DNA from: Heterotrichella gracilis
Taxonomy: Eukaryota > Sar > Xanthophyceae > Tribonematales > Xanthonemataceae
Direction: 5' to 3'
DNA length: 64,000 nucleotides
NCBI GenBank assembly: GCA_032358255.1
Contig: JAULBX010027827.1
Location: 124,001 to 188,000 of the forward strand
Part shown: piece by piece, positions 11,225 to 63,060 of the stretch
Numbering within the stretch: the stretch's first letter is position 1
Layout of the letters: each line of letters starts with the position of its first letter
Notes under the pieces: generated by a model
Databases searched by the model: none
The model's input: the letters and a program-made list of their open reading frames with translations, nothing else
What the model was told of the DNA's origin: nothing
Made by a program: the position numbers and the translations under genes

Positions 11225-14082
11225 CTACGTGCCCGGCTCCGAGCCCCCCGGTAGGTCATCCAATGCGTGCTTGTCCCCATCCACGTAATACCGCCAGGCG
11301 TGCTGCATGCGGTTGAGCTTGTCTGGGTGGTAGTTCATGTGGACCATGACGGGGAGGGGCTGCTCGCTCTGGGGCCGGTGCCGCACCGTCTTGAACAGGA
11401 CCTTGGAGTTCATGAACCTGGGCGAATGGGATGGGTGTACCTTTTTGCATCTCTGGAACTAGAAATGGAGATAAATTGCATTGTTTCATAATGCACCTAT
11501 GTGGTTGCATCCCTGGAGAACGGAAGTGGTGATTCATTGAACATTTTTGTAGTGCGCCACTTTAAGGCAAGGGGAATGGTAGCAGGGCAAGGGGAATGCC
11601 AAGCATCGCCCTGGCTGGGCAGAATGGTGCATGACTGCCGTATTCTCAACAATGCCGCAGCTGTGCATGCTGGAGGTTTGGGTTCAGGGCTGTGTGCACG
11701 GTTTGGGGTTTAAGGTCAGGGCTGCGGGCAAGGTTTAGGGTTCAGGCTCAGGGTTCAGGGCCATGTGCACGCACTTGTATATGTCCAGCACCCTGACCGC
11801 CACGTTGGGCGCCTTGTAGTCCCCGTGTGACAGGAAGAACATCTCCATGTTGTACATGCTCTGATCCCACTCCTTCTCGCGGCTCAGCCTGAAGCAGGGA
11901 GCCAGGGCAGGGTGAGCCAATTGAGGTTTAAGGAGGATCGGCGTGGCGCAGCATGTGGTACAGGAAATACAAGGGATGGGGAGTGTAGTAATGGCGGGTA
12001 TGGACGGGTGGTGACTAACCGCCTTTCAGCATGTGGATTCAACTGTGCGCTGACCTGGCCTATTGCGCCATTAATGGGTGCAGAAAATTCACTATCCCTG
12101 CCACTGCATGTCCCCAATCCCCTGCGTTTGATCCCCGCCCTGCATGCACCACCGTGGCCCAGTGCATGTGCGCAACCTCACTAACTGCCCCTCATGCCAA
12201 CCCCATGTGGTGCGCATGCCCTACAGCCCATACCAGCCAGGGTATGCACCGCCGCTCACTGCAACCCCCACACCCTTCCATGCACACGGTTGTAGGTGTA
12301 GGTGCCTGTCTGCAATCCGCTAATTCAAGAATCAGGGTTTCGGGTTGATTGCAGGTACCTGTCTGCGATTCGCTTCATCAGCTCCTTGCTGGGCTCCGTG
12401 GCCCGGATGTAGAACAGGCCAGAGTTCATTGCCATGTGGCGCGTGGCCTGTGCGTAGCGTGACCACCCCATGCTCTGGTCATCGATGCCGTCTATGTGTC
12501 CGTATGCGGTTGGCTCATCAAACCCATCGGACATGCCCTCCACGTCGTGGTCCTTGTACAGGTGCTTGAAGGGGTCCTGGGGAGGGGGAAAAGAGGCAGG
12601 GATTCGAGTGTGTCGTGCCCTGTATGTGTGATGTTGGGGCTGATGTAGCACCCCTTGGGCCCACCTGGGAGGATGTGTGAGTGTATGTGGATGCTGCTTA
12701 TCTTTGTGCATCCCTTGAGAGCCATCGCATGGTATTGCCTGGTACGATATGGCCCGTGAGGTTTTCATAATGCGGCAGTTTTTTCAACAATATCTTTGAT
12801 AGTATGAGGCAAGATGGCGAGGTAGGATATGCTGGTATTGCGTGGTCCAAGAGTTGTTCAAAGGGGTCTATCATGTGTACCTGTAGGACCAGCACGTCCA
12901 CATCACACAGCAGCACGTTCCACCCGAGCTGGAGGAACTCCGATATGATGCCAAACTTCATGGCGGACACAGCATGGTTGTCGCCTGTGTTCTCGTGGTG
13001 CTTGGGGATCTGCAACAGAGGATGATGATGGTGATGTGGTGGGCTTGCTGGCACCCCAGTAGAGGATTGTAACGCAGTGACCCTGCTGGCATCGCAACAC
13101 ATCCTTTCCATGTACAATCCCCGTGCTTGATCCCCAGGCATGCAAGTACCCATGGCTGGTCCCCACCAACGCACGTCCCACAAGCGCTCCTGCCCGCGCC
13201 AAATAGAAGCATGCTGCAGGTTCTTTCCGTGACCACGAACCACCCCCCGCAGCAGGTATGGTTTGTTATTGTCATCGTCAGCTGACTGTATGCGCACCAC
13301 ATCCGCCAATTACCCAAGGCCCAACAGGCGTGATGGGGAGTGCAGCTTACCACCACGGGTCTGTAGAAGCACTGCTCTTTTTGCTCGATACACCACTTGT
13401 TCAGCTTGTCGTCAATTGCCACAACCAGGTAGTTGGTCACTCCTGCGTGCTTCACACCCTGCAATCCCAAACAGGCTATTCAGCCATGGCATGCGTCCAG
13501 AATTGCTTTACATGCCCATGGTGCTGCTGATGCTGTCCAGTGGTGGTGCTAATCTGCTGTGGATGACTCATAGAGGCAAGTGGTGCGGTCAGAAGTCCAT
13601 CGAAGCCTGCACCATAGAGCCTGGAGGGCCATGGCATGCGACAGGGGAAGCCCCAGCCTTGTTGCAGCAGATGCTGACCATGGTGCTGCTGATGCTGTTG
13701 TAAACTTGAAGAGCCAAGTGGTGCAGTCAAAAGTCCGTCAGTGTGCTGTTATGGTGCCCACCTTGAGCCACATTGGCAGCTCTCCATAGGGCACCAAGTT
13801 GTAGTTGGAGATGGCAATCATGACGTCTTTGGAGGGAGCTATTCTCATCAGGACCTCCTCCAGAGCGTTCCTTGGCTTCCCCTTCAAAGGTTTCGACAGC
13901 TCCTGCATCTTCCTCCCCCCCCCCTCTGCCGTCTCTGTGGGTGCTGCCGTGTAGGCCAAATACATTCGTTCTGACACGATGACACCCACACAGATGCCCA
14001 GCACGAATGCTGTTGTGAGGACCTTTGACCGGGACCGGGCTTTCGTCTTCCCCTGTGAGTCGTCATAGTCGTCGCTGCCCAT
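11225..14082 (-). CDS. XEG113-like arabinosyltransferase (GT77)
   Basis: Six exons (14082-13762, 13458-13351, 13009-12881, 12576-12359, 11888-11775, 11417-11225) give 360 residues. Residues 1-20 are cytosolic and basic, about 21-42 form one membrane anchor, and the rest is lumenal: a type II Golgi enzyme. The nucleotide-sugar/metal-binding DVD lies at 179-181 within [11 protein letters not shown]. The following [18 protein letters not shown] and the C-terminal [12 protein letters not shown] and [11 protein letters not shown] closely match plant XEG113, which extends arabinose chains on hydroxyproline residues of extensins. A role in arabinosylating wall or extracellular-matrix hydroxyproline proteins is inferred. 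It is shorter than the plant enzyme at the N-terminus. All joints are in phase, including two split codons. Confidence 0.85.
11680..11775 (-). repeat. Telomere-like tract and donor-side copy in arabinosyltransferase intron 5
   Basis: Imperfect TTTAGGG/TTCAGGG units fill 11700-11760 on the plus strand, flanked by two copies of an element containing GTGCACG (about 11690 and 11765). On the sense strand the tract reads CCCTAA after the donor, the reverse of most other cases in this window. Confidence 0.5.
12297..12330 (-). repeat. Copy of the exon 4 3' edge in arabinosyltransferase intron 4
   Basis: A 34-bp stretch matches the true exon end and donor at about 12352-12386 with a few changes. Shared plus-strand words include CCTGTCTGC and CGCT. 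A short telomere-like TTTCGGG/CAGGGTTT tract separates the two. Confidence 0.6.
13518..13745 (-). repeat. Direct duplication inside arabinosyltransferase intron 1
   Basis: Two related blocks lie at about 13518-13600 and 13677-13740. They share GTGCTGCTGATGCTGT and a second element with CAAGTGGTGC-GTCA-AAGTCC. Both are wholly intronic. Confidence 0.55.
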
Positions 14083-15029: not shown

Positions 15030-18000
15030 TCATTTCCTCCCCTTCTTCTTGAGCGCCAGCACGCCCTGCGCTGCCACCTTGACATCGCCCAGCATGGCCG
15101 CCACCACCTCCATGTCGGGGATGGAGCGGGTCAGCTCGCGCTCCCGGGGACCAAGGGCAGGGTCCTTGCTGCGCAGGAGCAGCTCCAGGGCCTGCGGGAG
15201 TAGGATTAGGGTTTAGTGTTTAGGGTCTACAGAGAGTGGTACATGCGAGGGAGTATGCTGGCGTGGCCCATGGGGAGCAGCCTTGCGTGCCTCAGCAGCT
15301 TAGGGTTTAGGACTGCTCCCCTTAGGGTATTGACAGTGGTGGCCGTGGCTAGACGCTGTGTGATGAAGCACGTGTGCACAGGACCATGGGGATGTGCCGC
15401 TGCACACAGTGCGCAAAACATAGGCGCAGAATGCAATGCCAAGGACACTCAGTTGTCAAGAACAACTAACAGGCATACAATTAAGCCATGCAGACCAGGT
15501 CAACACAAACCATCAGGGCAATGCGCAGCACACCCCACAGCCGACCCCCACCGAACCCACCACCTGCTGAATCCCCGCTGGCCACACCACGCGTTGATCA
15601 ACATCCTGCACACACAGTGCCTACTCCCGTAACTACCCACCCACCCCACCAACCGCCTTTCCAATCCCCCCCACCCCCCACCTGCTTGGCCGCCCTCCCC
15701 TTGCGCTGGTTGCCCGGTATGAGCTTCACCCTGTGGCGGTACCCCGTGAGTGCGGAGTAGGGCGCGCACACAGGCAGGCAGGCAAGCAGCACGTCCCCTG
15801 CCTGGGGTGCGCCAGTGAGCGAGTCCACGTCCCGCAGCCGCTCCAAGTCGGACTCATCAAGCACCTTGACCTGAGCGCCAGGGAAAAGGAAAAGGGCTCA
15901 AATGCCAGGTGCATGCAAGCAGACATCTGGCCAGAGGCCAGACGTACGCAGCACTTTGGGCCTTTGGGGTGGGTGGGTAATTGGGCGGGTGAAGGGATTA
16001 GGGATCAGGTACATGGTGCATCCAGGATAGATCTGGCTCCATGCCTCACATCTTGAAGGTTGGCATGGCAGGGCTGCATGGTCCAGGGGGCGTCCAAACA
16101 GATATGTGGCTTATCTGGCCCGATGGCATCACCCCCTTGCCCTGCCCCAAGTCTCACCTGTTCCTCTGCCAGCAGAGCCGCCACATCAGCCTTCTCATCT
16201 GGGTCCATGGCCTGCACACAGGGGTACCCATGCTTCAGAAAACGCAACACTGCGGCAGAAAAGGAGAACGTGCCTGGGCCTAGGCAGAACAGGGAGCTGG
16301 GACAAGTGCATGTAGGCCTGCATACGCCTGTCGAAGAAATTGCTAATTAGCATATATTGTATGACCAAAAATCCCTAGCAGGGTGGGTTTTCCAACCCAC
16401 CTCCTGTGCCTCCGCCTCAGCCTCACTGGACCCCCCAGACCCCTCCCCTGTTCCCTCATCTGCCGCCTCCCCTGCCTGCCCCTCCCCCTCCCCTACCCTC
16501 CCTCCATTCTCCTCCCTCTGCCCCCCTTGATCAGGCTCCGCAACCTCGCCCACCACCACTGGCTTGGCAGTCATTCGGGCGATTTCCTCGGGGGTTGGGG
16601 CCGCAAACATGGCGGGGTCGGGCGCAGACTTGTTCTCCTTGCGCGCCTGGCGCTCGTGCTTGCGGCTGTTTTTGTCCTTCTTCTGACCTGAAGGCACAAT
16701 CACAATCAAAATTAGACGCCATTCCGTCATAAACTTCATTACTAAGCTTTCGATCACAGTCACAATCAGACCCCATTCCGGTAATTTTCATTGCTAGGTT
16801 CTCCATTCCATTCATTCCACCAGCCTGTCAGGCACTGCGACTGGTTGGAGTTGCTGATGCTGCGGGCAACCATGTACCTCTCTGCCGACAGATTGCAGTT
16901 GCGTCGCCCTCCACTGAGCAACATCACCCTACATAAACCCTAAACCCTACCCCCTTTACCTGCTAATTGCAGCAGCTGCATGGCCAGCTTCCTGCCCTCC
17001 ACTGAGTAAGAATTTACCCTACATACGTTATACCATCTGCCCCAAATCCTAAACCCCAAACCCTTACCTGCCGATTGCAGCAGCTGCATGGCCAGCTTCC
17101 GATCCTCCTCATCCTGGTCCCCATACTTCTCCTTTGCCTTCTTTTGCTTCGCGTTCTTCCCCCTTAGCCCGGGCTTGGCAGCAGGCACGCCAGGCGCTGT
17201 AGCTTCCTTCTTGGCCTCCCGCCGCTGCTGCTCCCTCTTGCGCGCCTCCTCGAGGGTCAGCTGCTGGTCGGGTGCTGACGTGGCGGGGGGCTGGGGGGCT
17301 GAGCTGGATGCTGCGCCAGGCTGTGTCTGAGGTGGGGGCTGTTGGCCTGACGTGCCCTATAAGGCAGATTGCGGCAGTTGGCAGGGTGCATCAACAATGA
17401 GAAATTTCTGTAAATGTCAGGAGAGTGGATCATTGTACAGGTGTCAGTTTCCTCTGGCCAATCTGTAGAGCAAACTTGACACAAATGAGCCACTATCAAA
17501 TACTTGGGGTTTACATTGGCTAAAGGGTGTGTGCAATGTAACAAGGGCATCAATGCCGATCGTAACGCGCATGCAGTCACCTAATCATGTATTTTGAGCT
17601 GCCTTTACTTGACAAAAGAACTCCCTAATAAAGTGCCGCCTTGCACTGCACATGGCAAGCAACCGGCTGACAAGGGCAACCTGAGCAACATCCCCCCACC
17701 CACCTTTTTCATTGCCTTCCTCTCCGCTGCAGACAGATGCCTCCTGGAGGGGTCAGATCCATCGTCTTGCTTGGAAGATGACGGGGCGCTTTGTTCCACC
17801 TCCTCTTCGATGGATGTGTACGACGTCTCGGGGGCATCCAAGCCGTACCTCTCATACTGGGACCCAGCACCCACCCTGCAACAGCCATGGTGCATTCAGG
17901 ACAACTATGGACACATGCAAGTCATACACAGAAACCTCTATGTATGGACTAAGAACTATAGTGGTCCACTGTCCAGGACACCCAGAGCAGTGCAGGGATA

Positions 18001-21000: not shown

Positions 21001-23935
21001 ATTTGCTCTATTACAGTCGCCACACGATCAGCGGCCCCAGCCACGTCCCAGCCACATGTAGTGACATAATTGCGGTGGCTGTACCTTCATGTCTGCAATC
21101 TCGGCCTCCTTGGCCAGCGTCTCAGCTCGCTTCCCCTGGTCATCCTTGATCTTCACCAGCTTGGACACAGCCTGCTTCTCCTGCTGGACCCGCTGGTTGT
21201 CGAGCTTCTGGGTTTCAATCTGAAGAGCACAGGAGCATCATGTCAGTGCCACTGAGATGTCACAGCTAAGATACCAAGCTGAGATGCCAAGCTGAGATAC
21301 CACGCTGAGATCAATACCACACTACATGAGCCTAGTGAACATGTCAGGTACTGGCGAAGATCAGCATGTCGAGGTAATTGTACGTATTATAAGGCTAGAT
21401 ATAAAACTTGAAATTGGTGTCACTCAATGCCAGTGCTGTATACCTTGCTGAAGAATTCATCCAGAGCTGCGTCAAAGGTGGGGAAGTCAAGCCGTGGCTT
21501 GTCGGCATGCTGCTTGAGAATGAGAGGCTCAAAGTCGTTGTACAGGACAGGCTCCTCCGTCTCACCGGGCTTGGCGAGGCCTGCACATTATTATGCAATT
21601 GTTAATTATTGTCATTATTAAAAGCATTGGCAATGATCCACAGCAGAATCAGCTCACTCGCGGTACTCGAAACACTCAAAGGCTGCTACAGCAACATCCT
21701 GCAGAGCAGAAACCAGCAAGATAGAGAGCTCCCCAAGAGATTCACAGCCACAATAGTTGGTAACTACGCTTTCCCACCAAACATGCAAAGGAATATTCCC
21801 CAAAGTTACACCAGCTATATTAATCAGCAACCCGCTCATATAAGACAACGCAGGTACTGTGTCCTCACCTGGTTTGGTCAAGATGTACCCTGCGGGCGGC
21901 TCCTTCTCGATCTCATCCATCCAGTGCTCATAGCCCCTGATGGCCCCCATGAGGCTCCCACACTCCTCGTCAGACAGGGGCAAGGCGTGCACCTTGCGGT
22001 CAGGCTGCAGGCCGGCTGTGAGGATGCAGTGGTCAACCACAGCAGGGCCAAACGGCAGCACACTGCCCACAGCACCTGCACCAGCGTATTGAAGTTGGTA
22101 TTTATCGATACCTTGTATCAGAGTGTACAACACTGCTCATAGCAAGTCCACCACCAGAATTCGAATCCAAGATATGCTGGCATTTCTTTTGAATATTCTG
22201 TTGTGCACGGCAGGGCAGACCTGCGCAAGGTCATGTTCCCAAAACCATTTACATCTCTATGCACATGGCTGCTTGCCAGCCACCATGACATTGCACAGCT
22301 TGGAATACAAATAGGCACCCACCTTTCAGGGGCTGGTCTTTGGTGCACTCCGCCAGAGCTGCTTTCATCTGTGGCTGGGACACCGGCTGCCTGAGGCGGA
22401 TGGTGTGGATGGGGTAGGGGTGGCGCGCCATCATCGCAACCCCCTTGTCGTCATCCCGGTGCGATCGCAGCAGAGTGATCACTTCGTACTTGGAATCGGT
22501 GAGGATCAGGTTGCCCTGCCGGTGGCACAAGGGAGGCTTGGCACATGCGCCATGGCAATGTAGGATATGGCCTATGCAGGAGCATGCACATGCACCACGC
22601 CTGATGCCATGCACTTGATGGTGACTGCAACATGACCCCACCTGTGCGTACAGCTGGTGGTGCGCGTGGTACCCGCATCCACACGCGAACACCGCTCAAA
22701 CCCTAAACCTCAAGCCCAAACACTAGGCAAAGATCGCAATACACTCTGAACCCTAAATCCCTAATCCCCACCTGTGCGTACAGCTCCAGCAGCAGGTGGT
22801 GCGCATGGTCCCCGCTACCAAGGGCAAAAACCGCCCTAAAACCCTAAAACCATAAAGGCTAAACCCCTGAACCATGGCACCCACCTGCGCATACGGCACC
22901 GTGAGGCACCACCACCCATACGTGCAGTCCGCCCTAAAATCCTAAAACCCTAAACCCTAACCCCCACCTGCGCGTACAGCTCCAGCAGCAGGTGGTGTGC
23001 GTGGTCCCCGCTCCCAAATGTGAAGTCCACCACCCTGTCCACCCCCAGCTGGTTGACCGCCTCCAGTCGCCGTGTGCGCAGGTGCTTGCGCAGCTTGAGG
23101 GTGAAGTTGGAGGGGGTGTCGCCCTTGTCGCGCGTGAACTGGGAGGGGGGGTAGGGTTTTAGGGTTTAAGAGTTAGGGTTTGGGGTGGAGGGGGTGTCGC
23201 CTTGTTGCCGGTGAACTGGGGTAGGGTTTTAGGGTTAGGGATTTTAGGGTTCAGGGTGGAGGGTCAGAGCGGAGGGTGGAGGGGTGTCGCCCTTGTCGTG
23301 GGTGAACGGGCGAGTTGGTGGGTGGGTGTGGGTGAGGCTGGGGTTTGCGGTGTGGACGAGGAGAGGGGGCGGTGTATCATGGGTGTGGTGGCGAGGGTTA
23401 GATGACATCGTGCACAATGGGGTTGGCGTGCAATGCTACCAATGCAAGGTGAAGGATCGGGTTGTACCTGTGTTGAGTGAAATCGAATTCCCGACTCCAG
23501 CAGCACAAACACCTTCTCCCCATCATCGCCACTGCGCGCCAGCTTCAGCATGTACGTCTGCGGGGTGGGGTGGCAACAGATGGTTCATTGAAAGGAACAA
23601 GCAGCCACATAGTCATACCGTAGTTTGTGTCTCAATAGTGCATCCTAGCCTGCGCCTGGTTCTTGGGCATGGGTTGAACCCATAGCCCTGGCAACCCGTG
23701 CCCTCAACCCATGCATGATCGTTTTCATGATGAACACCGTTAGTTGCGTAGGCCTCGACCCATAACGCAGACAATATGTTGAGGTTTTCCATGCCTCTGT
23801 TTTTTGCATACGTGTTGACATCCATACCTTAGGGTTGAGGTCGTAAATGTTGGCCAAGCGCATGCCAATCACCCTCTTTTGCAGGCAAGCCACCTCGGAA
23901 CAAACATCGGCAGAAGTGAAGCGCTGCTTCACCAT
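15030..23935 (-). CDS. NEMF: NEMF / RQC2 ribosome quality control factor (NFACT family)
   Basis: Nineteen exons (23935-23828, 23557-23468, 23138-22968, 22515-22323, 22075-21869, 21580-21444, 21219-21085, 20802-20554, 20297-20145, 19839-19694, 19410-19227, 18850-18661, 18425-18209, 17875-17704, 17356-17068, 16687-16401, 16211-16158, 15870-15682, 15191-15030) total 3333 nt, 1110 residues, every joint in phase. The N-terminus [11 protein letters not shown] and [11 protein letters not shown] (with the D100-R101 pair tied to C-terminal tailing in the family) mark NFACT-N. A charged coiled-coil middle follows, then NFACT-R with [13 protein letters not shown] (about 531-545) and [10 protein letters not shown], an acidic linker, and NFACT-C ending KKKGRK. 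The protein binds stalled 60S subunits, recruits Listerin and adds C-terminal tails to stuck peptides. Length matches plant and animal NEMF. It is transcribed divergently from eIF3L. The exon 17 acceptor (16211) was chosen by phase over one at about 16253. Confidence 0.95.
16880..17067 (-). repeat. Copies of the exon 15 3' edge with telomere-like tracts, NEMF intron 15
   Basis: The true exon end at 17068 is followed on the sense strand by GGGTTTGGGGTTTAGG. One good copy of the exon edge plus donor lies at about 16957-17012 (shared GCAGCAGCTGCATGGCCAGC), and a weaker one at about 16880-16925. The spacers hold CCCTACATA and CCTAAACCCTA on the plus strand. Confidence 0.75.
22639..22967 (-). repeat. 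Array of exon 3 3'-edge copies in NEMF intron 3
   Basis: Three degenerate copies (starting about 22639, 22769 and 22881) precede the true exon end at 22968; spacing is 80-130 bp. Each holds CACCTG-GCG-TAC followed by the [10 protein letters not shown]-coding edge in part, then a CCCTAAA-type tract. The copy at 22769 is nearly identical to the exon over some 50 bp and keeps the donor GT. Confidence 0.85.
23139..23310 (-). repeat. Copies of the exon 3 5' edge with telomere-like tracts, NEMF intron 2
   Basis: Two copies of the first 35 bp of exon 3 plus acceptor (about 23185-23220 and 23273-23310) lie upstream of the exon, with plus-strand GTGTCGCC-TTGT-G-GTGAAC shared by all. Plus-strand TAGGGTTTTAGGG tracts lie between, so the sense strand reads CCCTAAA just before each acceptor. 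Confidence 0.8.
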
Positions 23936-44700: not shown

Positions 44701-45748
44701 TTGATGAGGGCAAAACATGAATGATTCCCCCATCCCCTAGTGGTGATCACCCTGCTGAGGAGATCTACTGCACTATTTGACTTTCTCTAACTCTTGAGTT
44801 TTTGGTCCCCAAAATTTGCTGCACCTTTCAGGTGGCGAGCACAGCTGCCATGTGTGTCGCATCATTCCGGGAAATTTAAAAATTTGCCGCATTTCCCAGG
44901 TGGTGAGCACCGCCGCCATGCGTGCCCCCGAGGAGATCTACCGCACCGACGGGCCCCTGGTTGCTGCCGGTGAGCTGAGTCGCGAGGAGCGCAAGCGGAA
45001 CAGGGCGGACAAGAAGCGGCAGGGCAAGAAGAGGAGGGAGCAAAAGGTGCGTATCCCCGAGCGCATCATACTTGCATTGTACACCCCGCCTATAAACCCT
45101 ACACTTTTTGTTTGGGGTCTGTCCAGTAAGCCCTCACTTTGCAAGTAAGGCTCACCACAAATCTTAAACTCCTATGTGCTTCCAACCTTCCACCCCCACC
45201 CCTCCCATGCACCTGCGCCCTGTAGATGTTATGCGCTTCGCCATCAGCCAAGAGGTTGGGGTTTAGGGTTTGTCGGTCTCCAAGGTTTCCCAACCCCTTT
45301 CCCTTCCCTGCAGGACATTGATCGCCGCAACCGCGCCATCAGCCAAGGGGGGGAGGCGCCGTTGGTGGGGAGGAAGTCAGAGGCTGCGGAGGTGCTGGCA
45401 GCACAGGAGAAGAAGAAGGTAGGAAGAAATCTGCATCCTTGCGCTGCCTCCTTGCAAACCAACCTTGTTGCATCCCACTCTCCCCTTTCGATCCAATGCA
45501 CCACTTTCCTCCCCTTCTCGCAATCTAATCAATTGCCATTTGAGATAATAAATTCCGCCACTTTTCCTCAGGCAAAGAAGGCCGGCAAGGCTGGCAAGAC
45601 ACCCGCCACCGACGCTCCCAAGGGCAACTACACCAAATCTGCGGCGGTGTTTGGGCGGCTGCAGGACGAGCGCGAGGCGGGCACCCTTGGCAAGAAGAAG
45701 GTGGTGAAGGAGATCAACCTCACACCAGGCAGCCACCTCAAGCTGTAG
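38704..45748 (+). CDS. MPP10: U3 snoRNP protein MPP10 with Tudor-like N-terminal extension
   Basis: Fourteen exons (38704-38748, 38912-38983, 39229-39267, 39509-40498, 40947-41175, 41613-42080, 42532-42684, 43084-43206, 43556-43741, 43888-44135, 44347-44571, 44900-45046, 45314-45418, 45572-45748) give 1068 residues, all in phase. From about residue 360 on it is MPP10: LFVDGFDAEQIWCQLE, long acidic tracts, KYLKLDEMERFL, MYNDFFSD, RPLNSALEVDLDFER, FSKLDALSHFHYAPKP, APEEIYRTDGP and the end SHLKL. MPP10 scaffolds the Imp3/Imp4 module of the small-subunit processome for 18S rRNA maturation in the nucleolus. Residues 1-52 resemble a small Tudor-type fold (ATVVACNKRGNACRVEF, EEETFNLSKVQYE), followed by 300 residues rich in Ala, Pro, Thr and Ser. 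Exon 4 carries both linker and MPP10 start, which argues for one gene; transcript evidence for exons 1-3 would settle it. Confidence 0.92.
41200..41285 (+). repeat. TTTAGGG tract and copy of the exon 5 3' edge, MPP10 intron 5
   Basis: TTTAGGG units at 41200-41224 follow the donor, then a 55-bp near-identical copy of the exon end (GGGGAGGAGCCC, GGCTGCTCAC, GATCGATG-GTGCGTG) with an intact donor at 41279, 103 bp after the real one. Confidence 0.88.
41496..41536 (+). repeat. Tandem repeat, TGATCCCCAAA three times
   Basis: Three near-perfect copies of an 11-13-bp unit in MPP10 intron 5. Confidence 0.8.
42706..42753 (+). repeat. Telomere-variant microsatellite (TTAGGGG)n in MPP10 intron 7
   Basis: Five perfect GGGGTTA heptamers followed by TTAGGGTTTAG, 22 bp after the donor. 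Confidence 0.9.
44750..44865 (+). repeat. Copies of the exon 12 5' edge, MPP10 intron 11
   Basis: At 44819-44863 a copy of the acceptor and exon start (TTTCAGGTGG-GAGCAC-GC-GCCATG) lies just before the real one at 44900. A second fragment at about 44754-44776 repeats the later exon words GAGGAGATCTAC-GCAC. Confidence 0.75.
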
Positions 45749-49700: not shown

Positions 49701-52698
49701 CTGGCGGGTTCGCACACATCCAGCAGCAGCAGCAGCGCGGAGTCCGGGTGGTGCAGCAGGAGCACGTTGTCTGCGGCTGACAGGGCCACGTGGGGGGAGA
49801 ACAGCTCGTAGCTGTGCTGAAGGATGACGGCGTCCCTGGGATGGGAGAGAAAAGGTTGGGGATCAAATGTAGCCCATTATGTCTCAATTTGTTTGTTTAG
49901 TATCAGTACTAGTGGGGCTGATGAATTGGGTGATGTGGTGAATGTAAATCCAACCCCAACTTTACTTGTAGAAGCGGTACATGTGCAGCCTGAGCCCAGT
50001 CCCCCCCACGCAGCATCAGTACCCCCCAAGCCCTAAAACCCAGATCCTAAACCCTGATCCCAATCACTCGTGGAAGCAGTACATGTGCAGCTTGCGCGTG
50101 GTTCCATCTTTATAGCACCAAACCCTTTAAACCCTAAAAGAAAACCCTGTCCTACTTGTAGAAGCGGAACATGTGCAGCCTGCACGCGGTGCCCTACCAC
50201 ATAGCAGCGGTACACCCTAAACCCTAAAACCCTGTACCCTTACTCCCCAACTTACTTGTAGAAGCGGTACATGTGCAGCCTGCGCGCGGGGCCATCCACA
50301 TAGCAGCAGTACACCCGCCCATACACAGTCACCAGGTGTATACAATCGGGACCCAGGGGTGTGTGGTGCGGGTGGGTGGGGGGGGAGGGCGCGGGTGCAG
50401 GGGCGTGCGGGGGCAGGCCCAGGGGGGTTACGCCTCCCTCTGAGAAGGAGGGGATGGTCAGCTGCGGGAAGATGTCAAACTGGGGGAGCTTGATGGCGCC
50501 AAGGGAGGTGAATTGGTAGGCCTGGAAGAGGAGGACAAGGGGTGGGGAGGGGTGAATTGGTGTGCATGCAAGGGGATGAAAGGGGTGGACTCGTGGCCAT
50601 GCAAGGGGAGATAAGGGATGGAGGCACATTGGAGGCGAAAGCACAAGCCATACCAGCTCACTTGAACTGACCACATGGTTGAGAGTGTACTGACAAAGCA
50701 TGACACGTGCTGCAATCTACAGTCCACTGGACGCCTATCACAATATCAATCTGCGCTTTACCCAGCCCAAACCCCGAGTCCGACCCTGCACACCTGCACC
50801 CTCCCCTGCGCCTCCCCCAGCCCGAGCAGCACCATGCGTGACTCATAGGTAAACAAACCCTAGCACCCACCCAAAAACCTTGAACCCTGAAAATAAAACC
50901 CACCTGCACCCTCCCCGGCGCCTCCCCCAGCCCCAGCAGCACCATGCGCGACTCGTGGGTGTGCACATGCCAGCGCACTCCGCAGGGCTTGGCCTCAACA
51001 AGGTTCAAGCCCTGGCCACCCGCCTGCAGAAAGGGGGGGGTTAGGGTTCAGGGTTCAGGGTTCAGGGTTCAGGGTTCAGGTCCTGACCACCTGCCTGCAG
51101 AAGTGTTGGAAGTGTGATCTAACATGTGAGGGAATACCATTACGAGCGAGTGGAAGTGAGAGGTTTGCAGTGTGCACTGAGAACCAGTCCTGACATCACA
51201 GTAGCCTGTGCCATCATGCAATGCCGGTCCTTGACCACACCCCACACCACCAGCGCCCACCTGCATTGCGTACACCTCCAGCCCCGCAGCCGTGACCATG
51301 ACCAGGTCGGCTGAGGGGCACAGCACCCAGAAGAAGCCCAGGATGGTGTTGGTGCGCCGGCTGGAGCTGGGGCCCTGCAGGGTGTGGTGGTGTGGGTGGC
51401 GAGGGTGGGAAATTTGCAGGTGGGTGGTGCGGGGTGTGAGGAATAATGCGCACGCCTGGTTGGCCACCATCACTTTGATAGATTTTGAACATGATATCCT
51501 ACATCCCCATACTCCACGCATTGCGCCCTGCACCCACCTGCTGCTCATGCACGCATCTTGTACCCATACCCCTAATCGCACCCGCACAAACAGGGTTGCC
51601 TGTGCACATGTTGACCCTACACCCAATGCACACAAACCCTACACCTCAAACCCTACCTGCACAAACAGGTTGCCTGTGCGCGTGTTGACAAACTCCACGT
51701 GCGTGGGGCTGCGCTGAAGCGCCAGCAGCGCCCCCCCGGGAGACATGCGCAGGGACGCAATGGGGCCGTCGCACTCGTCAAGGGGGATGACCTGCGGGAA
51801 AGGGTGGGATGGGGAGCATAACCCATTGTGGGCAGTGATGGTGGCCAGATGTTGAGGACCACTGCAAGGTGACGACGCATGTTGTTGATACTCAATGATA
51901 GTTAAGGATCACGTGGTGAATGATCGTGTGGTCAATCGTCAATGGTGGTTGCTGATCGTGTGCTAGATGGATCGTGCGGTTGATCATCAACGGACAGGGT
52001 GTCATGAGCAAGCACACCAAACCCCGTTTCCTCCCCTGCATTTCCCACCTGCGGCTGCGCCCTGTCCTCCCCCTGCTCCCCATCCGCCCCTCCCCCAGCT
52101 GTGGGGTAGACCTCCACCCTCCCGTGACGCACAAGCAGCACCTGGGGTGGGGAGTGCATCAGGGTGCGATGGGGTGTGCGTGACGGGTAGGGACAGGATG
52201 GGTTGCAATGGTGTGTTGCATGCTGCACATACATAGATGCACTCTGCGCCGCATGCGTGCGTGACGTGTCCGAGTGGTTGTTGTGATGATTGTGGTGGTG
52301 TGATGCAATGATCACATGGTATACATCCATGCAGAACTGCTTGGCACCGCATGTGCAAGGCTGACTGCTACTCTTGCTGTAATTAAATGCAAATACCCAA
52401 CCAATTAACCAGCCCACCTGCTGTCGTCATATGTGAGGTGCGAGACGCAGTCTGCGGGTACCAAACGGTGCAAACAGTGCCAGAATACTACTGGGATGCA
52501 CGATGTGAACAGAAACAAGGCCATCTTGAAAATTATAAATTGATATTAAATCAAATTTTTAACTAAAAGTTTTGGAACGCAACTAAGTCACCAGCCCACC
52601 TGCTGCGTTGTGTCGTCATAGGTGAGGTGGGAGACGCCATCCGTGGGATAGCGCAGCCCGCTGTCTACCAGGCGCACTTGGGCAAGGGGGGGTGACAT
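46723..52698 (-). CDS. RMC1: RMC1 / Mic1-like regulator of MON1-CCZ1
   Basis: Thirteen exons (52698-52600, 52141-52049, 51791-51657, 51374-51261, 51023-50904, 50521-50256, 49835-49655, 49263-49000, 48628-48488, 48233-48057, 47750-47568, 47357-47223, 46845-46723) give 676 residues, near the 657 of human RMC1; all joints are in phase. The N-terminal half is an atypical WD40-like propeller (GALLALQRSPTHVEFVNT, TILGFFWVLCPSADLVMVTA, CIHLVTVYGRVYCCYVD, VLLLHHPDSALLLLLDV). The C-terminal half is the helical Mic1 domain (LTHVLQWLHEEEAVDAPYLQ, RTRSSTLFMAVVRFCGDYVQ). RMC1 is the accessory subunit of the MON1-CCZ1 exchange factor that activates Rab7 on late endosomes. The ATG at 52698 was chosen because it begins the conserved part, although the frame stays open upstream to 52986. 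Tandem behind ENY2. Confidence 0.88.
49477..49540 (-). repeat. Copy of the exon 7 3' edge, RMC1 intron 7
   Basis: About 60 bp repeat the exon end and donor at 49652-49716: GACCGCCACCATGGGCAG, GGCTTGCACAC and GGCTCGCTGGC. It is near identical and lies 175 bp away. Confidence 0.88.
49965..50255 (-). repeat. Three copies of the exon 6 3' edge, RMC1 intron 6
   Basis: Copies at about 49965-50000, 50068-50105 and 50152-50195 repeat the exon end at 50251-50290. Shared plus-strand words are ACTTGTAGAAGCGG and ACATGTGCAGC. CCTAAACCCTAAA tracts lie between, reading TTTAGGG after the donor on the sense strand. All three keep a GT where the real donor lies. Confidence 0.9.
50785..50903 (-). repeat. Copy of the exon 5 3' edge, RMC1 intron 5
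   Basis: About 65 bp (50788-50850) repeat CACCTGCACCCTCCCC, GCGCCTCCCCCAGCCC and AGCAGCACCATGCG, almost identical to the true end at 50901-50966. Degenerate CCCTGAA/CCCTAG tracts separate them. Confidence 0.88.
51037..51118 (-). repeat. (TTCAGGG)n tract and copy of the exon 5 5' edge, RMC1 intron 4
   Basis: Five tandem GGGTTCA heptamers (about 51048-51080) stand right before the acceptor on the sense strand (reading CCCTGAA). A copy of the exon start with acceptor (CCTGACCACCTGCCTGCAGAA) follows at about 51080-51105. Confidence 0.8.
51588..51656 (-). repeat. Copy of the exon 3 3' edge, RMC1 intron 3
   Basis: ACAAACAGG-TTGCCTGTGC and GTTGAC at about 51588-51615 repeat the true exon end at 51661-51690. 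A CAAACCCTACACCTCAAACCC tract separates copy and exon. Confidence 0.8.
52408..52462 (-). repeat. Copy of the exon 1 3' edge, RMC1 intron 1
   Basis: CCAGCCCACCTGCTG, GTCGTCAT and GTGAGGTG-GAGACGC repeat the true exon end at about 52591-52645, with a small deletion. The donor is intact. Confidence 0.78.
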
Positions 52699-56088: not shown

Positions 56089-56893
56089 GCTGGCAACACA
56101 GCTGTGCTCCTATGTACATACACCCAGCACTCAGGGACAGGGTCACGACTGACTTGACTTAGGAGCGATGCGTAGCTGCTAATATTTTAGTATGCCACCA
56201 CTCGATTTTTCTGTTCGATTTTCTGTTCTTTCTTTCAGTGACATTGATCATGACAGCCTGCCATTGGGGAGCATTCAGTTGACAGTGGCATGGTCCCGCA
56301 AGACAGCCTGGGAGCGTGGTGTGGTGGACTGCATGTACACTTACAATTACATATAATGCTTTACAGCCCGGTTTGAAGCTTTGAGCTGCATGCACCGCTG
56401 GCGCAGGAATACCCTGCAGAGTCACTGTATTGTGGTAGTGTAGTGGACGTTGCGCTGTGCAACTCGTGAACGTCAGGAACGAAACATCTGCTGGTGGTGG
56501 GGTTGAAAACAGCAGATGGGAGGCATTGGCAAACTGTAAACAGCACTTCCTATTTTCACTGGGGGCAAGCAAGAGGTGAAAACTCCCCATACTTGGAGAC
56601 AAACCTCGTGGAAAAAACCTTGTACAAAACCACAGCAATACCAAGAACATAGACACGATTGAACGGCAAAGAGCACGATGCTGTACACAGTCAGCACAGC
56701 CAAAATTTTAACAACAAGAGTGTACGGCAAAGAGCACGGTGGTACTGCACACAGTCAGCACAGCAAAATTTCTATGACATTAAAGTACAAAACGTCCTGG
56801 CCTAGGCTGTCACATGATGCCATTTCAGCTACACTTAATACACTACATGGAGTGTGCTGCCTTCCTAGCTAATGTCAGTAAGATAGCCACAGC
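56089..56893. other. Convergent intergenic, 3' flanks
   Basis: Holds candidate poly(A) signals (TGTAA about 56534 on +, about 56365 on -) and one TGCATGCA (56388). Around 56685-56765 two direct copies of a 35-bp element (shared GTACGGCAAAGAGCACG and ACACAGTCAGCACAGC) lie side by side. No gene was seen. Confidence 0.5.
56680..56768. repeat. Direct repeat, about 40 bp, two copies
   Basis: CGGCAAAGAGCACG followed by TGTACACAGTCAGCACAGC-AAAATTT occurs at about 56660-56708 and again at about 56720-56772, with small gaps. It is untranslated. Confidence 0.65.
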
Positions 56894-57562
56894 TTAGCCA
56901 CGCCACCCCTGCTTCCCAGCATATCTGAGCACGTCCCCACTCTGCACCGCCATCAGGCCCCTGGCCTGTATGGCCGGGCTGCCACACCTCTGCCTCTGCG
57001 CAGTGATCGCACGCTGCCGTGCCTTAAAGCCCTTGGCAGGGGGAGGCAGCGGCACCTGCAGCTCAGCAGCGCCCTTCCAGGACTGGTGCAAGGTAAGGAC
57101 AGTGACCAAAAGGAGCTGTACATACTCCAAAGCAAGCCCTGCACCCGCCATGATCTCCAGCACACCCATGGGTCCGTTGGCGTTGGAAAATGTGGAGGCT
57201 TTGAACTCTGCTGCCACAGCCTTGGTCTCCTCGTTGGTGCACATGTAGCCCTTGGGGCCGTTCCTCCACGTGAAGCTCTCAGAGCCAAGGGCAAACACCA
57301 GCTCTTGTGGGGGTCCTAGCTCCCTGGCGCCGCTGTGCGTTGTTTCCAGGCAAGTAACGTACTCCCCCTCACCAGAGGTAACCACAAGGTTCCAACCTGA
57401 GGGTGAACTGCCCCGCCCAGCACGCTTCTCCACCAGCAAGGCCTTCTGATCTAGAAGGGCACTCCAGCCATGATACAACGTGCAACTGGCTGGTTCAAAA
57501 AGGAGCTTGCCCCAAGGACCCACGCACTTGCCATCCGCGAAAACTTCAAAACAGCAGCTCAT
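56894..57562 (-). CDS. Intronless protein of unknown function (possible tubby-like beta-sandwich)
   Basis: A single open frame of 222 residues from ATG to stop, unlike its intron-rich neighbours. I do not recognise it with confidence. The middle part (LVFALGSESFTWRNGPKGY, then VAAEFKAS and GVLEIMAG) has the rhythm of small phospholipid-scramblase/LURP-like or DUF6593-type beta-sandwiches, followed by one hydrophobic helix (LEYVQLLLVTVLTL) and a basic tail. That layout suggests a soluble domain capped by a helix that may touch a membrane. This is a weak structural impression only. Composition and codon use are like the host genes. It shares a 755-bp divergent promoter with the aldo/keto reductase gene. 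Confidence 0.7.
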   Translation of the reverse strand: MSCCFEVFADGKCVGPWGKLLFEPASCTLYHGWSALLDQKALLVEKRAGRGSSPSGWNLVVTSGEGEYVTCLETTHSGARELGPPQELVFALGSESFTWRNGPKGYMCTNEETKAVAAEFKASTFSNANGPMGVLEIMAGAGLALEYVQLLLVTVLTLHQSWKGAAELQVPLPPPAKGFKARQRAITAQRQRCGSPAIQARGLMAVQSGDVLRYAGKQGWRG

Positions 57563-58317: not shown

Positions 58318-61300
58318 ATGGCGTTCCTTCAGCTCTCTCACACCAAAAGTGTGGTAGGACCCATCACAACGCAGCGTGCCCAGAGGCGACGTGCCCACAT
58401 ACGATGCGAGGTACAAACAACAAGGCCGACTGTTGAGCTCGGGAAGTCAGGTAGGGACACTGGATCCATCTGCTGTGCGCCATCGCTTGGCATGCAGTCT
58501 ACCACCAATAATCCACCTGATAGTGTACTTAGGCAGACAATTACGTATTGGGTGTAGAGCATAACTCGCTGATAGTATGTGTATTTACCGAAACCGAGCA
58601 CCCATGTTGTATGTCGCCCCTTTTGTGTGGTTTGTGCCAACTGCTGTGGCATAGTAGCCATACACCAACGTGTGGGTGGTAGGGCGTTCTTTGTGCACAC
58701 AGCTATGCCAGGATACCAAGTGCCAGGTTACAATATGCTTGGAAAGACAATGGCCGTGCTAAAGCAAAAGAGGACTGTGCAACACGGGTAGTAAGTGGCG
58801 CTGGCGTGCATCCCTCTGTAGATCTATGTTGTAGTCTACAGGGTACCCGGAGCAGACAGGCCCTCCTCCTTCTCACACACATTCCCACATAGCCCATACT
58901 CCACATCACGTGCCAACTGTACAGGGCTGCAGGTTGCCCCTGTGGGGATTGGGGCTTGGTCATGGGGGGACAGGAGTGGGTACTGGGGATACGGGAAAAC
59001 GTACGGCAAAGAGGAAAACAAGGAGGCTTACAGCGGGCTCATATCGGCAGGGTTTGACTTCATTGACACAGCTGGTGAGTCAGAAAACTTTATAGGGTAG
59101 GTGCATGTGGGGTGGTTTAGGAGGGGTGCGGGTGTGCAAGCCTTGGAGCGCTTGCCAAGTAGGGGTTATAGTTGAGGGTTCAAGCTCATGGCTAATTCCT
59201 CACAGTCAAGCTATCACTGCTCTGGAGGGACGCACCACCTTGCAATACGTCAATTTGGTCCCTGCTTTCTTTGGTGGCTGCGTTAAAAGTGCTGGGGCGT
59301 GCATGGCGTACATGGCGTCGAGACAGGGCCGGCTGATGCGAGGCATGAAGGCCAAAATGCTGACCTGGGCTGTATTGCTGGAACTCGTGCATGTTTTTGG
59401 CTGTACTTTATCTCAAATTAAATGATTTTAATGTGATTTATTGAATGCAATTTATTAAATGCAATTTATTTGAAACACTGTCGTCGTGCGCAGAGGTGTA
59501 TGGGTTTGGCAAGTCCGAGGAGTTCCTGGGTGAGTTCATCCGCGAGACGGGTACCTCCCCCGTCATAGCAACCAAATTTGCCCCCCTGCCATGGAGGCAG
59601 ACCTCGGGGTCGGTGGTGAAGGCGCTGCAGGTGGGGAGGAAAACCCTGCTTTATAATGTTGAATTTTTGCGGTTTTTTACATGCTTATACGTGCATGTTT
59701 AACAAGTTTATTTTGTTCGAAGTGTTTTGCAGGTGTATGCTGTAACAAATTATTTAATAGTTGGTTTTGTAGAAGCATAGATGATCTTATTCATCCATAC
59801 CCATGCCACCTTCCTTGCATGCTAGTTTGATTGCAGCAACGTCTGATTCCGGACCACATGCTGAGGCCCTGCTCGCCCTTAGCCCGTCAACCCACATGTT
59901 CCCCCCTCACCTCCCCACCACCACCTCTACCTTTGCAGGCCAGCTTGGCACGGCTGCAGCAGCCCAAGGTGGGCCTGTACATGATCCACTGGCCGGGCTT
60001 TTTCTTCAACGCATTTGCCAACGAGGCCTATGTGGAGGGGCTGGCCAAGTGCAAGGAAATGGGGCTGGCGGATGCAGTAGGTGGGTGGGAAAGACGAAAT
60101 ATGTGCGGCAAATGGTGTTGCCCTCGTGCTCATGCTAGCAGTGGTCTCCAGGTGGTTTTGATAGCATTCAATTGCCAGACTGCATTAACTAGTGTGCTGC
60201 TTTTAGCATCTATGTACAGCATGATGCAGTGACGATACTGCAATTGCAGGTTGCCACGGTCATTTTTGCATCATCCCACCCCGCACCCAACCTCTACCCG
60301 TGCAGGCGCGTCCAACGTCATCGGGAAAATCAATCTGAATGCATGTGAAATACTGACCTTCCACCGTCGCAGGCGTGTCCAACTTCAACGAGAAACGCGT
60401 GCGCGCCGCTCACCGCACCCTGGCTGCCCGCGGTGTGGCGCTTGCATCCAACCAGGTGCAGTACAGCCTGCTGTACCGCACGCCCGAGAAGAACGGTGTG
60501 CTTGACGCCTGCAGGGAGCTGGGGGTGACGCTGGTGGCATACTCGCCGCTGTGCCAGGGGCTGCTCACAGGTGGGTGGGTGGGTGGGGAGGTGTGGGTGG
60601 ATGGGTGGGGGGAAGTTGAGGGGAGTCTCATACCCTAGTTAGGGTATAGGCATGAGGGGTGATCTTGGTGGGGTACTCGCCACTGTGCCAGGGGCTGCTC
60701 ACAGTTAATGGGGGAATCGGGGTTTGAAAGTAGGCTTATACCCTAGTTTAGGGTTCAGGCTTGAGGGGTGACGCTGGTGGTGTACTCGCCGCTGTGCCAG
60801 GGGCTGCTCACAGGTAATGGGGGCAGGGGGTTGGAATGTGGGTTGGCACTTGTGCCAAATCTCTGAATACCATTCTGCAAAAAAAAATCCTTAGTGTAAA
60901 TCTATACCATACCATCATCATTTTCCATTACTACAAGACTTATCATGTCAAATGTCCTCGTTAAGTCTATGCGTTACGTCTATGCGTTAAATGCATGTGT
61001 AAATTTTCCTTTCCCCTACCGCTCTAGGATTCGCCACACACCCTGCATTTCTCCCCCCTGCACAGGCAAGTACACCCTCGACAACCTACCCGGTGGCCAG
61101 CGCCAGATCAGCATCAACGCCGATCGCATCCGATTGGTGCAGCCGCTGATCGAGCTGATGCGCGAGATTGGTGAGGGCCAGGGGGGAAAGACGCCCGCCC
61201 AGATCGCCATCAATTGGACTGTGTGCAAGGGGGCGCTGCCCATCCCAGGTGAGGGCAGTGGAACCCTAGGTGCCCTGAGGCTGGAACCGTTGGCTTGAAA

Positions 61301-61509
61301 CATGTATGGGCTAGCCTTCTGATGACTATCTTTGCTTTGTCCTCACGTGCCATCCCTTTTTACCCTCCCCAGGTGTGAAGAACCCCCGCCAGGTTGCTGA
61401 GCTGGCAGGCGCCTTTGGGTGGAGCCTGACCCCCGAGGAGGTGCGGGCACTGGATGAGGCCAGCGATAAGGTGCCAAGCAGCACGGGGGCGCCATTTGAG
61501 AACTGGTGA
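58318..61509 (+). CDS. Aldo/keto reductase, probably plastid-targeted
   Basis: Seven exons (58318-58450, 58925-59074, 59494-59630, 59939-60080, 60373-60570, 61066-61248, 61373-61509) give 359 residues in phase. The start has an ideal context (CGCCACCATGG). The first 40 residues are basic and Ser/Thr-rich without acids ([13 protein letters not shown]...[10 protein letters not shown]), like a chloroplast transit peptide. The AKR fold follows with the catalytic tetrad in place: D92 (FDFIDTA), Y97 (EVYGFG), K122 (IATKFAP) and H157 (YMIHWPG), then [17 protein letters not shown] and [13 protein letters not shown]. It resembles plant plastid AKRs and pyridoxal reductases, NADPH-dependent reductases of carbonyl compounds; the substrate cannot be told. 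Introns 4 and 5 and the 3' flank hold copies of nearby exon edges. Confidence 0.9.
60303..60340 (+). repeat. Copy of the exon 5 5' edge, AKR intron 4
   Basis: GTGCAGGCG-GTCCAAC followed by TC-ACG-GAAAA repeats the acceptor and start of exon 5 (60368-60400) with several changes. Confidence 0.65.
60640..60815 (+). repeat. Two copies of the exon 5 3' edge, AKR intron 5
   Basis: Copies at about 60654-60704 and 60762-60813 repeat GGTGACGCTGGTGG, TACTCGCCGCTGTGCCAGG and GGCTGCTCACAG. The second keeps the donor GT (60814), the first has lost it. Short TAGTTAGGGTATAGG / TAGTTTAGGGTTCAGG tracts precede each. Confidence 0.9.
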
Positions 61510-63060
61510 AGGGGGGAAGGGAAATCCAGTGCCAACGCTGTTTACAGCCAGCAGGGGGTGGGCATTTGCGAACTGGTGAAGGGGAAGGAAATGGAGATCA
61601 GCGTCTTGGCTTACATCTAATCTACTCAGTACTACTACTATAACTGCAGTAGTACTATTATCCACTGCTGCGTACCCCTCCTCTATGGCTGAGCTGGGTA
61701 TTAAGGTCAGGCTTGCCTTGTCATTGCAGTTGCTGCGGGGAACAAATTCCGCACAAAGCAGGGTGTTGGCAGCCTGACTTGTCATTTGCTCATTGATTGC
61801 CATGGTTCAGAAGGAGCTGATTCAGCAACCTATTTTTGTCAACCGTTGAATTGTTGGACTGCAGTTGTGCCGGGGGCTATCGCCGGACAGGCTGGCGGCA
61901 GATACATTTCACGTTTTTATCCTGTACTACTGTTGTTTGTCACTAGACTGGAACATATTTTGGGCTGGGTGGGGTGGGTAGGGTGCACAACTTGAGACTT
62001 CTTAAGGCTGATGTTTGTATGCACTGAGATTGATGACGTTGTTTGGTATGGTGTGCGTTGAAAGAAATGATGTGGGCAAGAAGCCCGGCCCAGTTTGATA
62101 GGCCTGGCAAGTTTGTTGTACAGTGAGCAGCACAAGCTAGGCTGCACAGTAATATGGCAGGTTACACACTGTTAGAACCCTAAGGAGTATCATCGAGTAT
62201 GCAGGAAGTGTGTTGCGCATATCGTGTTGTAACAAACAGTTTACCACCTGCCCTGCGACGAGGACGGCAATGCAATGCCAGCCATGGTGCATTTTTTCTG
62301 CATGATGATACGGTAGCAAACAGTGTTCACGTTCAGAGGCTTTCCGAAAGCAATTGGAATGTGTTGGCAACAGCCCTAGCATGGACAGAAAAAAATTCAA
62401 ATTTCAAAATGTGGTTGTCAAGCATCCCCAACTTGCAAAGGGTTTGACAACTCCTTCGGAAACCTTCGTGCGTTGACGCTGCAACAAGATACCGGCACTG
62501 GTACGTATTTTCAGGGTCACAACGATAGGAGTTGGTTCCTCCGACAGCTAGTTGCTACTCAGTGTAGGCAGCGACCTCAGTCTGGTACCTGCTTCAACGC
62601 ACGGTGTGCTGGCCATACTCCCTCTCACGCAAACCACACCTGCTCAAAACGTTTGGAGTGGGCTTCTCTTGCTTATGCAAAGCAATTGCTGGCTATTGGC
62701 TCGGCAGTCTGCCTTCCATTGTGGTCCAGCCTCCAGGGACAAACTGAAACTGCCAAGCTGTCGCCCAAAGATGGTGCGTGGGTTGCAACGGGTACAAGTC
62801 TTCGTTCCACATCCTACGTAGTACTCTTACAGTTGGGTTGGACGTAACACCAACGTCCCCTGCACCCTCACACTCACTTCAACCAAAACATGGCCTCACT
62901 GCAGACCCCACTGCCTGGTCCCGTCAAGAAGTCTCATATCTCGTAACCTGTGTAAAGGTTCTCTTCCGCCAACTGGTACAGGGCTTTGGGGCTTGCCCTC
63001 GCGCAATAGCGTCCCTGATGCAGCTTGAAGCAGCACACTAGCGCCAGCTAAGCTGCAGCC
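61510..63060. other. Intergenic between AKR and the last gene
   Basis: The first 85 bp hold a copy of the AKR gene end (61553-61593). A TGTAA near 62229 is a possible poly(A) signal. The rest shows only short open frames with no recognisable product and should contain the promoter of the gene at 63061. Confidence 0.45.
61553..61593 (+). repeat. Copy of the AKR stop-codon region in its 3' flank
   Basis: GGGGG-G-GCATTTG-GAACTGGTGAAGGGG-AAGG-AAAT repeats the last codons, stop and following bases (61486-61525) 66 bp downstream. Like the RMC1 case, it is outside any intron. Confidence 0.85.

Follow-up and report, generated by a model that had tools for sequence, protein, structure and literature searches.

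The window analysed here is a 64-kb stretch of DNA from the xanthophycean Heterotrichella gracilis (contig JAULBX010027827.1, positions 124,001 to 188,000), and the feature under study is a recurrent element of its many GT-AG introns, namely, a local copy of the edge of the adjoining exon, often separated from that edge by telomere-type repeats. The genes were modelled with a small gene finder that was self-trained on the window, and the models were then corrected by hand: three exons were added, one was altered and one prediction was removed, namely a copy in MPP10 that the gene finder had mistaken for an exon. The final models comprise 98 exons (mean 191 bp, 62% GC, i.e. guanine plus cytosine) and 85 introns (mean 326 bp, median 308 bp, 51% GC). 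All ten proteins that were submitted gave Pfam matches, which identify them as TMEM62-like, nucleotide-sugar transferase (XEG113-like), NEMF/NFACT, eIF3L (Paf67), villin headpiece, DUF2838 (GPC1), Mpp10, RMC1, flavin reductase and aldo-keto reductase (AKR); the names XEG113 and GPC1 were taken from an earlier note on the same DNA. Judged by gene content, TTTAGGG-type repeats and the character of the introns alone, the DNA would seem to be that of a green alga.

That note had claimed that introns hold extra copies of the neighbouring exon edge, in the same orientation and including the splice site, and our analysis confirms that such copies exist in the window, far beyond what is expected by chance. 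A comparison of the window with itself (telomere 7-mers masked, score of at least 38) yielded 37 direct pairs within 500 bp and only two inverted ones, both of which are palindromes; beyond 1500 bp there were no direct pairs and four inverted ones (scores 39-43), and pairs 500-1500 bp apart were assigned to neither class. An unmasked comparison contained one pair at such an intermediate distance (42032/43146, score 45), which lies inside acidic MPP10 exons and was excluded from the counts. Block-wise dinucleotide shuffling produced one near direct pair across 20 shuffles. The 37 pairs represent alignments and not events, and they collapse to 20 families at exon borders and two others, of which one is inside an intron and the other downstream of a coding region. 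The intron-internal family (13513-13739) is a 76%-identical direct repeat within an XEG113-like intron, and the only intron family away from an exon border; the other one (56653-56771) is a tandem pair of ~58 bp with 85% identity, which lies downstream of a coding region on the minus strand (~57560-56894) that the gene models missed. Both are free of telomere repeats. The copies at borders are situated within the intron and resemble the border from which they originate. No pair in the self-comparison matches the donor border of an intron with the acceptor border at its other end, except for MPP10 41176-41278 if the copy is counted as an exon. An assembly error was set aside as explanation, given that copies and parents differ in sequence and that the copies are tied to exon borders.

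The borders themselves were scanned by comparing each of the 170 exon edges with its own adjoining intron (score of at least 34), with the other introns as control. A copy was recovered at 21 borders (15 donor, 6 acceptor), i.e. in 21 of the 85 introns, against one hit in 850 for the control, for which the maximum score was 39. These counts per border are safer than counts of copies, as copies sharing one intron are not independent. The note had staked its claim on copies being commoner at exon edges than elsewhere, and within the window a sliding profile places a local copy at 15-16.5% of the exonic positions up to 40 nucleotides (nt) ahead of donors and at 5% of those up to 20 nt past acceptors, as opposed to 0.3% in exon bodies and 0.6% in intergenic DNA, the latter class still including the missed coding region (~56894-57560) and all untranslated regions. 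The value for intron interiors is 7.5%, this being where the copies themselves reside. In the same profile 498 of 12,790 positions had a copy in their own flank, and none of the 12,790 had one in a displaced target.

The copy-bearing introns are distributed over seven genes (NEMF 3, eIF3L 4, villin headpiece 1, GPC1 3, MPP10 2, RMC1 6 and AKR 2), which are seven of the nine named in the earlier note. The remaining two fall short: in the XEG113-like gene the best border score is 30, below the threshold, and other repeats in that gene involve only the intronic part of the donor, whereas the copy proposed for an acceptor of the TMEM62-like gene comes down to weak intronic repeats (score 30-33) beside that acceptor. 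These XEG113-like repeats include three degenerate telomere-like units of ~32 bp in one intron (11675-11777). The number of up to three copies per intron given in the note was found when the score was lowered to at least 28. The note had also described the copies as ranging to barely recognisable and the process therefore as continuous. The exonic identity of the donor-side copies does range from 78 to 96%, and at borders without a scored copy weak similarity is slightly commoner than expected (p<0.05 for 6 of 70 donors and for 7 of 79 acceptors); beyond this excess a search at those borders for a hidden population of very old copies found none, so that the long tail of barely recognisable copies had been overstated. 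Its expectation of longer introns was borne out, as the median length is 382 bp for the 21 copy-bearing introns and 303.5 bp for the 64 others (p=0.00085). Three features had escaped it, namely the telomere-type filler, the polarity of this filler and the lopsided breakpoints.

The families are listed in Table 1. Two of them (36543 and 60081) are weak and were detected by the edge scan only. As the query of that scan held just 16 nt of intron and thereby limited the intronic lengths, breakpoints were taken from a separate, uncapped (blast) comparison, whose 20 families omit these two and include donor 61505, which is outside the 85-intron set.

Table 1. Families of exon-edge copies in the window (positions in the window; parent, the exon edge with its splice site; 7-mer, telomere-type 7-mer)
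Gene and border	Span	Strand	Parent	Copies	Telomere-type repeats	Remarks
NEMF-like donor	16935-17108	-	17044-17108	16935-17000	telomere-like 16934-16949, 17048-17064	
NEMF-like donor	22636-23017	-	22946-23017	22749-22821, 22636-22707	telomere-like arrays 22698-22709, 22834-22866, 22932-22960	further degenerate copy ~22885-22932, by eye only
NEMF-like acceptor	23108-23323	-	23108-23142	~23186-23220, 23277-23323	telomere-like 23152-23181, 23222-23251	mirror image
eIF3L donor	25477-25747	+	25477-25534	~25601-25653, 25709-25747	arrays 25535-25550, 25571-25585, 25672-25692	
eIF3L acceptor	26330-26504	+	26427-26504	26330-26402	no 7-mer	
eIF3L donor	27283-27492	+	27283-27368	27409-27492	array 27370-27396	
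eIF3L donor	29288-29569	+	29288-29351	29501-29569	no 7-mer	
villin-headpiece gene donor	31695-31926	-	31871-31926	31695-31750	no 7-mer	
GPC1 (DUF2838) acceptor	35999-36248	-	35999-36061	36186-36248	no 7-mer	
GPC1 (DUF2838) donor	36657-36802	-	~36763-36802	~36657-36695	three overlapping 7-mers in filler	weak; score 38, just under control maximum 39
GPC1 (DUF2838) donor	37125-37353	-	~37299-37353	~37213-37263, 37141-37192	arrays 37264-37295, 37196-37209, 37125-37137	arrays C-rich on sense strand, sole polarity exception
MPP10 donor	41124-41300	+	41124-41197	41227-41300	array 41195-41224	
MPP10 acceptor	44811-44924	+	44879-44924	44811-44856	no 7-mer	
RMC1-like donor	49469-49723	-	49645-49723	49469-49549	no 7-mer	
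RMC1-like donor	49954-50316	-	~50253-50312	~50153-50213, 50059-50117, 49954-50026	telomere-like arrays 50031-50055, 50120-50148, 50214-50233	
RMC1-like donor	50791-50960	-	50901-50960	50791-50850	telomere-like 50855-50862	
RMC1-like acceptor	50999-51102	-	50999-51031	51070-51102	telomere-like array 51038-51080	
RMC1-like donor	51580-51689	-	51655-51689	51580-51615	telomere-like 51634-51655	
RMC1-like donor	52395-52637	-	52577-52637	52395-52448	no 7-mer	AT-rich filler
AKR acceptor	60298-60395	+	~60364-60395	~60298-60328	no 7-mer	weak; score 37, under control maximum 39
AKR donor	60522-60815	+	60522-60572	~60656-60704, 60765-60815	telomere-like 60639-60645, 60746-60755	
AKR donor	61479-61584	+	61479-61514	61549-61584		blast set only, outside 85-intron scan

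The families mostly share one order, which reads outward from the exon as the exon end, the splice site, a few G-rich nt, TTTAGGG-like repeats, and the copy of the exon end with its splice site, after which repeats and a further copy may follow before the remainder of the intron. This anatomy is clear for the introns NEMF 22516-22967, RMC1 49836-50255, eIF3L 25522-25969 and 27361-27664, MPP10 41176-41612 and AKR 60571-61065, and on the acceptor side of NEMF 23139-23512 the same order is found on the opposite strand, where it mirrors the donor side strand for strand. Telomere 7-mers of the TTTAGGG type are present in the filler of 13 of the 21 families and absent from that of the other eight. 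In 12 of the 13 the G-rich strand points outward from the exon and in one (GPC1 36973-37315) it points inward (p=0.003). The bias is a property of borders with copies: clusters of 7-mers there have a G:C ratio, read outward, of 22:2 compared to 15:17 at borders without copies (Fisher 0.0005), and when counted per border the polarity is 12:1 compared to 11:15 with one tie (p=0.005). A general preference related to splicing, i.e. for G-rich intron starts and C-rich intron ends, would show in both sets.

Telomere-type sequence is in itself concentrated in the introns, with 275 hits of the 7-mer in 27,693 bp of intron, 33 in 17,015 bp of intergenic DNA and 4 in 18,692 bp of exon. Ten perfect arrays of 14-21 nt are located in seven introns and all seven carry copies, compared to 14 of the 78 other introns (p=2.4e-5), while for introns with any 7-mer the numbers are 14 of 33, compared to 7 of 52 without one (p=0.004). 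Perfect arrays of at least 14 nt were not found in the intergenic stretches of the window. A perfect two-unit array of the CCCTAAA type does occur at 63909-63922 in the unannotated tail near the window end, ~186 bp beyond the final exon of the gene models and a short way ahead of an acceptor (63932) that was called only in a discarded first pass of the gene finder. Telomere-type sequence is also found at two MPP10 donors that have no exon-edge copy at the threshold, i.e. a long GGGTTAG array 20 bp past one donor (42704-42772) and TAGGGTTTTGCAC units right at another (40500-40538).

The duplicated stretches are short (33-86 nt in 20 of 20 families, and thus all under 100 bp) and they straddle the border unequally. 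Measured from the exon border, the outer breakpoint is 1-23 nt away on the intron side (median 8.5) and the inner one 25-78 nt away on the exon side (median 46.5), with the exonic part exceeding the intronic part in all 20 families (p=1.9e-6), which places one breakpoint just outside the exon. The zone of the outer breakpoints is rich in G-runs: at 3-20 nt outside exons the density of outward GGG per 100 nt reaches 8.3 on the donor side and 12.4 on the acceptor side, compared to 2.7-2.8 at 80-120 nt outside and 1.8 in intergenic DNA.

In 15 donor-side alignments the mismatches between copy and parent number 19, 17 and 34 at codon positions 1, 2 and 3, respectively (third-position excess p=0.006), and nine of the ten indels are not multiples of three. 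Such a pattern fits a freely drifting copy that is compared with a silently changing exon, and, judged from these alignments, the copies look unselected.

From the observed anatomy, position, polarity and breakpoint asymmetry of the families, and from the neutral look of the copies, we infer breaks, telomerase action and fill-in, and a joint operation of processes that have been published separately, at exon borders. To the resulting reading, namely, that the families are small tandem duplications of exon borders that stem from error-prone repair of staggered breaks, often with telomere repeats at the join, we would give an even chance. The two strands would be cut ~30-85 nt apart, once in the G-rich intron border a few nt outside the exon and once within the exon. 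Telomerase would then add TTTAGGG repeats to the G-rich 3' end on the intron side, which would result in an outward G-strand; extension of the exonic 3' end instead would lead to the opposite polarity and could account for the single exception. Filling in of the overhangs, which elsewhere is performed by CST and DNA polymerase alpha-primase, and joining of the ends would yield the order exon edge, telomere repeat, exon edge. As the new copy is intronic and hence spliced out, it would be tolerated and subsequently decay, and repeated rounds would account for several copies in one intron. The eight families without a telomere 7-mer may reflect the same repair minus the extension, or filler that has decayed past recognition.

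Several points weigh against this reading. The material is a single window with some 20 families. Three of the 12 families with outward polarity (50522, 51024 and 36543) depend on two to three overlapping 7-mers, and on the acceptor side the polarity is that of two telomere-filled families only. That TTTAGGG is the organism's own telomere repeat is an assumption; the repeat is on record for Chlorella and Coccomyxa. One of the families that lack a 7-mer (49264) is fairly young, with an identity of 0.90 across 69 exonic nt, so that telomerase is not required every time. Finally, proxies for break-site nucleotides that are in register with the repeat fell short of significance: GGG is found near the exonic breakpoint in 8 of 21 cases (4.7 expected, P=0.068), and within the first 12 intron nt at 11 of 15 donors with a copy compared to 34 of 70 without (p=0.095), and at 3 of 6 acceptors with a copy compared to 44 of 79 without (p=1). 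With these tests not significant, a claim of microhomology at the breakpoints was dropped.

The main rival reverses the order of events. The telomere-like tracts would have come first, and forks that stall and slip at such G-quadruplex-prone tracts beside exon borders would have duplicated the edges, the new G-rich strand folding, slipping back and recopying the exon end; extension of breaks by telomerase would then not be involved. The outward G-runs at both borders fit this scenario, and the repeat units in RMC1 49836-50255 and GPC1 36973-37315, in which tract and exon edge are carried together, fit backward slippage well. Nevertheless, slippage explains neither the origin of the tracts nor why their polarity is biased at copy-bearing borders only, and in 8 of the 21 families there is no tract to slip on. 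We consider it rather unlikely.

A second possibility is one of visibility: ordinary small tandem duplications may arise everywhere, with the exonic ones being purged and with pairs of which one member is a constrained exonic sequence remaining recognisable for longer. Since the copies look neutral and the exon constrained, visibility must favour the border cases to some degree, and wholly exonic duplications are indeed expected to be purged. Yet the extent of the effect appears insufficient. Border families make up 20 of the set of 22, the other two being the intron-internal one (13513-13739) and the one past a coding region (56653-56771), as opposed to a share of 0.21, 0.34 or 0.44 that would be expected if border cases were one, two or three times as visible (P=2e-12, 4e-8 and 5e-6, respectively; the families were counted by hand and matched by the uncapped comparison). 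In addition, intergenic positions are nearly free of repeats, random units should straddle the border symmetrically where the exonic part is in fact always the longer one, and the polarity of the filler is not predicted. We regard visibility as an improbable explanation of the pattern as a whole.

It is very unlikely that the copies are maintained by selection as tandem alternative exons or decoy splice sites, although some observations could be taken that way. The GT is kept at the matching place in 13 of the 15 best donor-side copies, which agrees with the expectation of the earlier note that tandem splice sites would be bred, and it is the third codon positions that differ most (34 of 70 mismatches). 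In one family, at NEMF 16688, use of the donor of the copy would preserve the frame without a stop codon. This family is the only such case: splicing at the copy's donor, whose position is approximate, would put 12 of 15 families out of frame and introduce stop codons into 12 of 15, and in 13 of 14 scored cases the donor of the best copy does not exceed the true donor in strength. Codon positions 1 and 2 differ about as expected for a neutral copy, and the indels mostly break the frame. Comparison with the solved eIF3L agrees with this, as the protein has no copy-sized insertion at the joins of the four copy-bearing introns; the nearest differences from the homologue are one of a single residue and one of six residues, some fifteen residues before one join. 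A homology search with MPP10 gave no match. Functional exons were therefore rejected on the evidence of frame, codon positions and eIF3L homology.

That an introner or a telomere-seeking retroelement left the copies as long target-site duplications is hardly credible, for although the copies do flank a common insert, the telomere repeat, much as such duplications would, no shared element beyond that repeat was seen in the window, there is no direct pair at a distance after masking (only the four inverted ones), and the stretches of 33-86 nt compare with 3-9 bp in some introner families (PMC9860276). Introners were rejected, as no near-identical element recurs in many genes of the window. The distinction from introners that the earlier note had drawn, i.e. 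that every copy is local, thus holds: introners spread one sequence over many genes, whereas what they have in common with the present copies is that insertions are tolerated because they are spliced out, and they occur in fast-evolving lineages such as green algae (PMC9860276).

The ingredients of the preferred reading, i.e. staggered-break repair with telomere repeats at the join, are known individually, namely staggered-break repeats in introns (PMC4202315), duplication across an exon border (PMC4974935) and interstitial telomeric insertion (PMC7215372). In new introns of Daphnia, direct repeats from staggered breaks lengthen the intron and some are common to intron and exon end; however, those intron-exon repeats measure 4-12 bp and stand at the far end of a recently acquired intron (PMC4202315), whereas the ones in the window are 33-86 nt long, stand beside the same border and are often linked to telomere repeats, in introns that need not be new. 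In a potato RdRp gene, a local tandem duplication across an exon border copied the splice signals as well (PMC4974935; review PMC3443670), but there it made a new intron, while the duplications in the window appear to lengthen a standing intron, do so repeatedly and contain telomeric filler. Interstitial telomeric repeats have been inserted at double-strand breaks in horse, human and other primates, and rodents, for which telomerase or retrotranscribed telomeric RNA has been proposed (PMC7215372). They resemble the present families in being short internal arrays, some with a direct duplication of the flank (plain duplication at 3 of 66 loci, with two more showing deletion, addition and duplication), but the arrays in the window accompany copies of exon borders, are polarised and are iterated; the intronic share of the human loci is compatible with random insertion (PMC7215372). 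At breaks whose 3' ends protrude, by as little as 43 bp, CST-guided Pol-alpha-primase in turn makes small tandem duplications (PMC8355091), for which dependence on CST, 53BP1 and Shieldin is a defining property. These, too, are direct duplications of less than 100 bp that involve the machinery of telomere maintenance, in this case in mouse and human cells, and the part of that report drawn on here mentions neither telomere repeats at the joins nor a link with exon borders.

The earlier note knew of no named intron class with this behaviour and had missed that the closely related processes above had been published. Exon-border duplications linked by telomere repeats are not described among the matches listed in a search of the open-access literature (titles and abstract openings), and none of those matches shows the known ingredients acting together at exon borders, with a polarity, in repeated rounds and in roughly one intron out of four. 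A pattern search for relatives by means of eIF3L gave 4 matches in viral_contigs and 20 in genome_contigs, with no relative among them, and a DNA pattern of a donor followed by telomere repeats had no matches in either set. As a separate observation, the villin-headpiece protein contains a low-complexity exon rich in Pro, Ala and Glu (32439-32942).

Two old questions are touched by these observations, namely, how introns lengthen and whether mutation targets exon borders. The oriented footprints in about a quarter of the introns of the window relate the growth of introns to the repair of breaks with telomere repeats at the join, and suggest that faulty break repair in which the telomere machinery takes part lengthens introns at exon borders. 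A bolder version, which we put forward tentatively and hold to be somewhat less probable than the repair reading itself, is that telomerase-assisted repair acts preferentially at exon borders and recopies the exon edge outward time after time, and that this process is a main and still active engine of intron growth as well as a source of tandem splice sites. The polarity of the filler allows the action of telomerase at internal breaks to be tested from sequence alone. The decaying copies may serve as a clock for each intron, and they constitute a natural supply of tandem splice sites as well as a trap for gene prediction.

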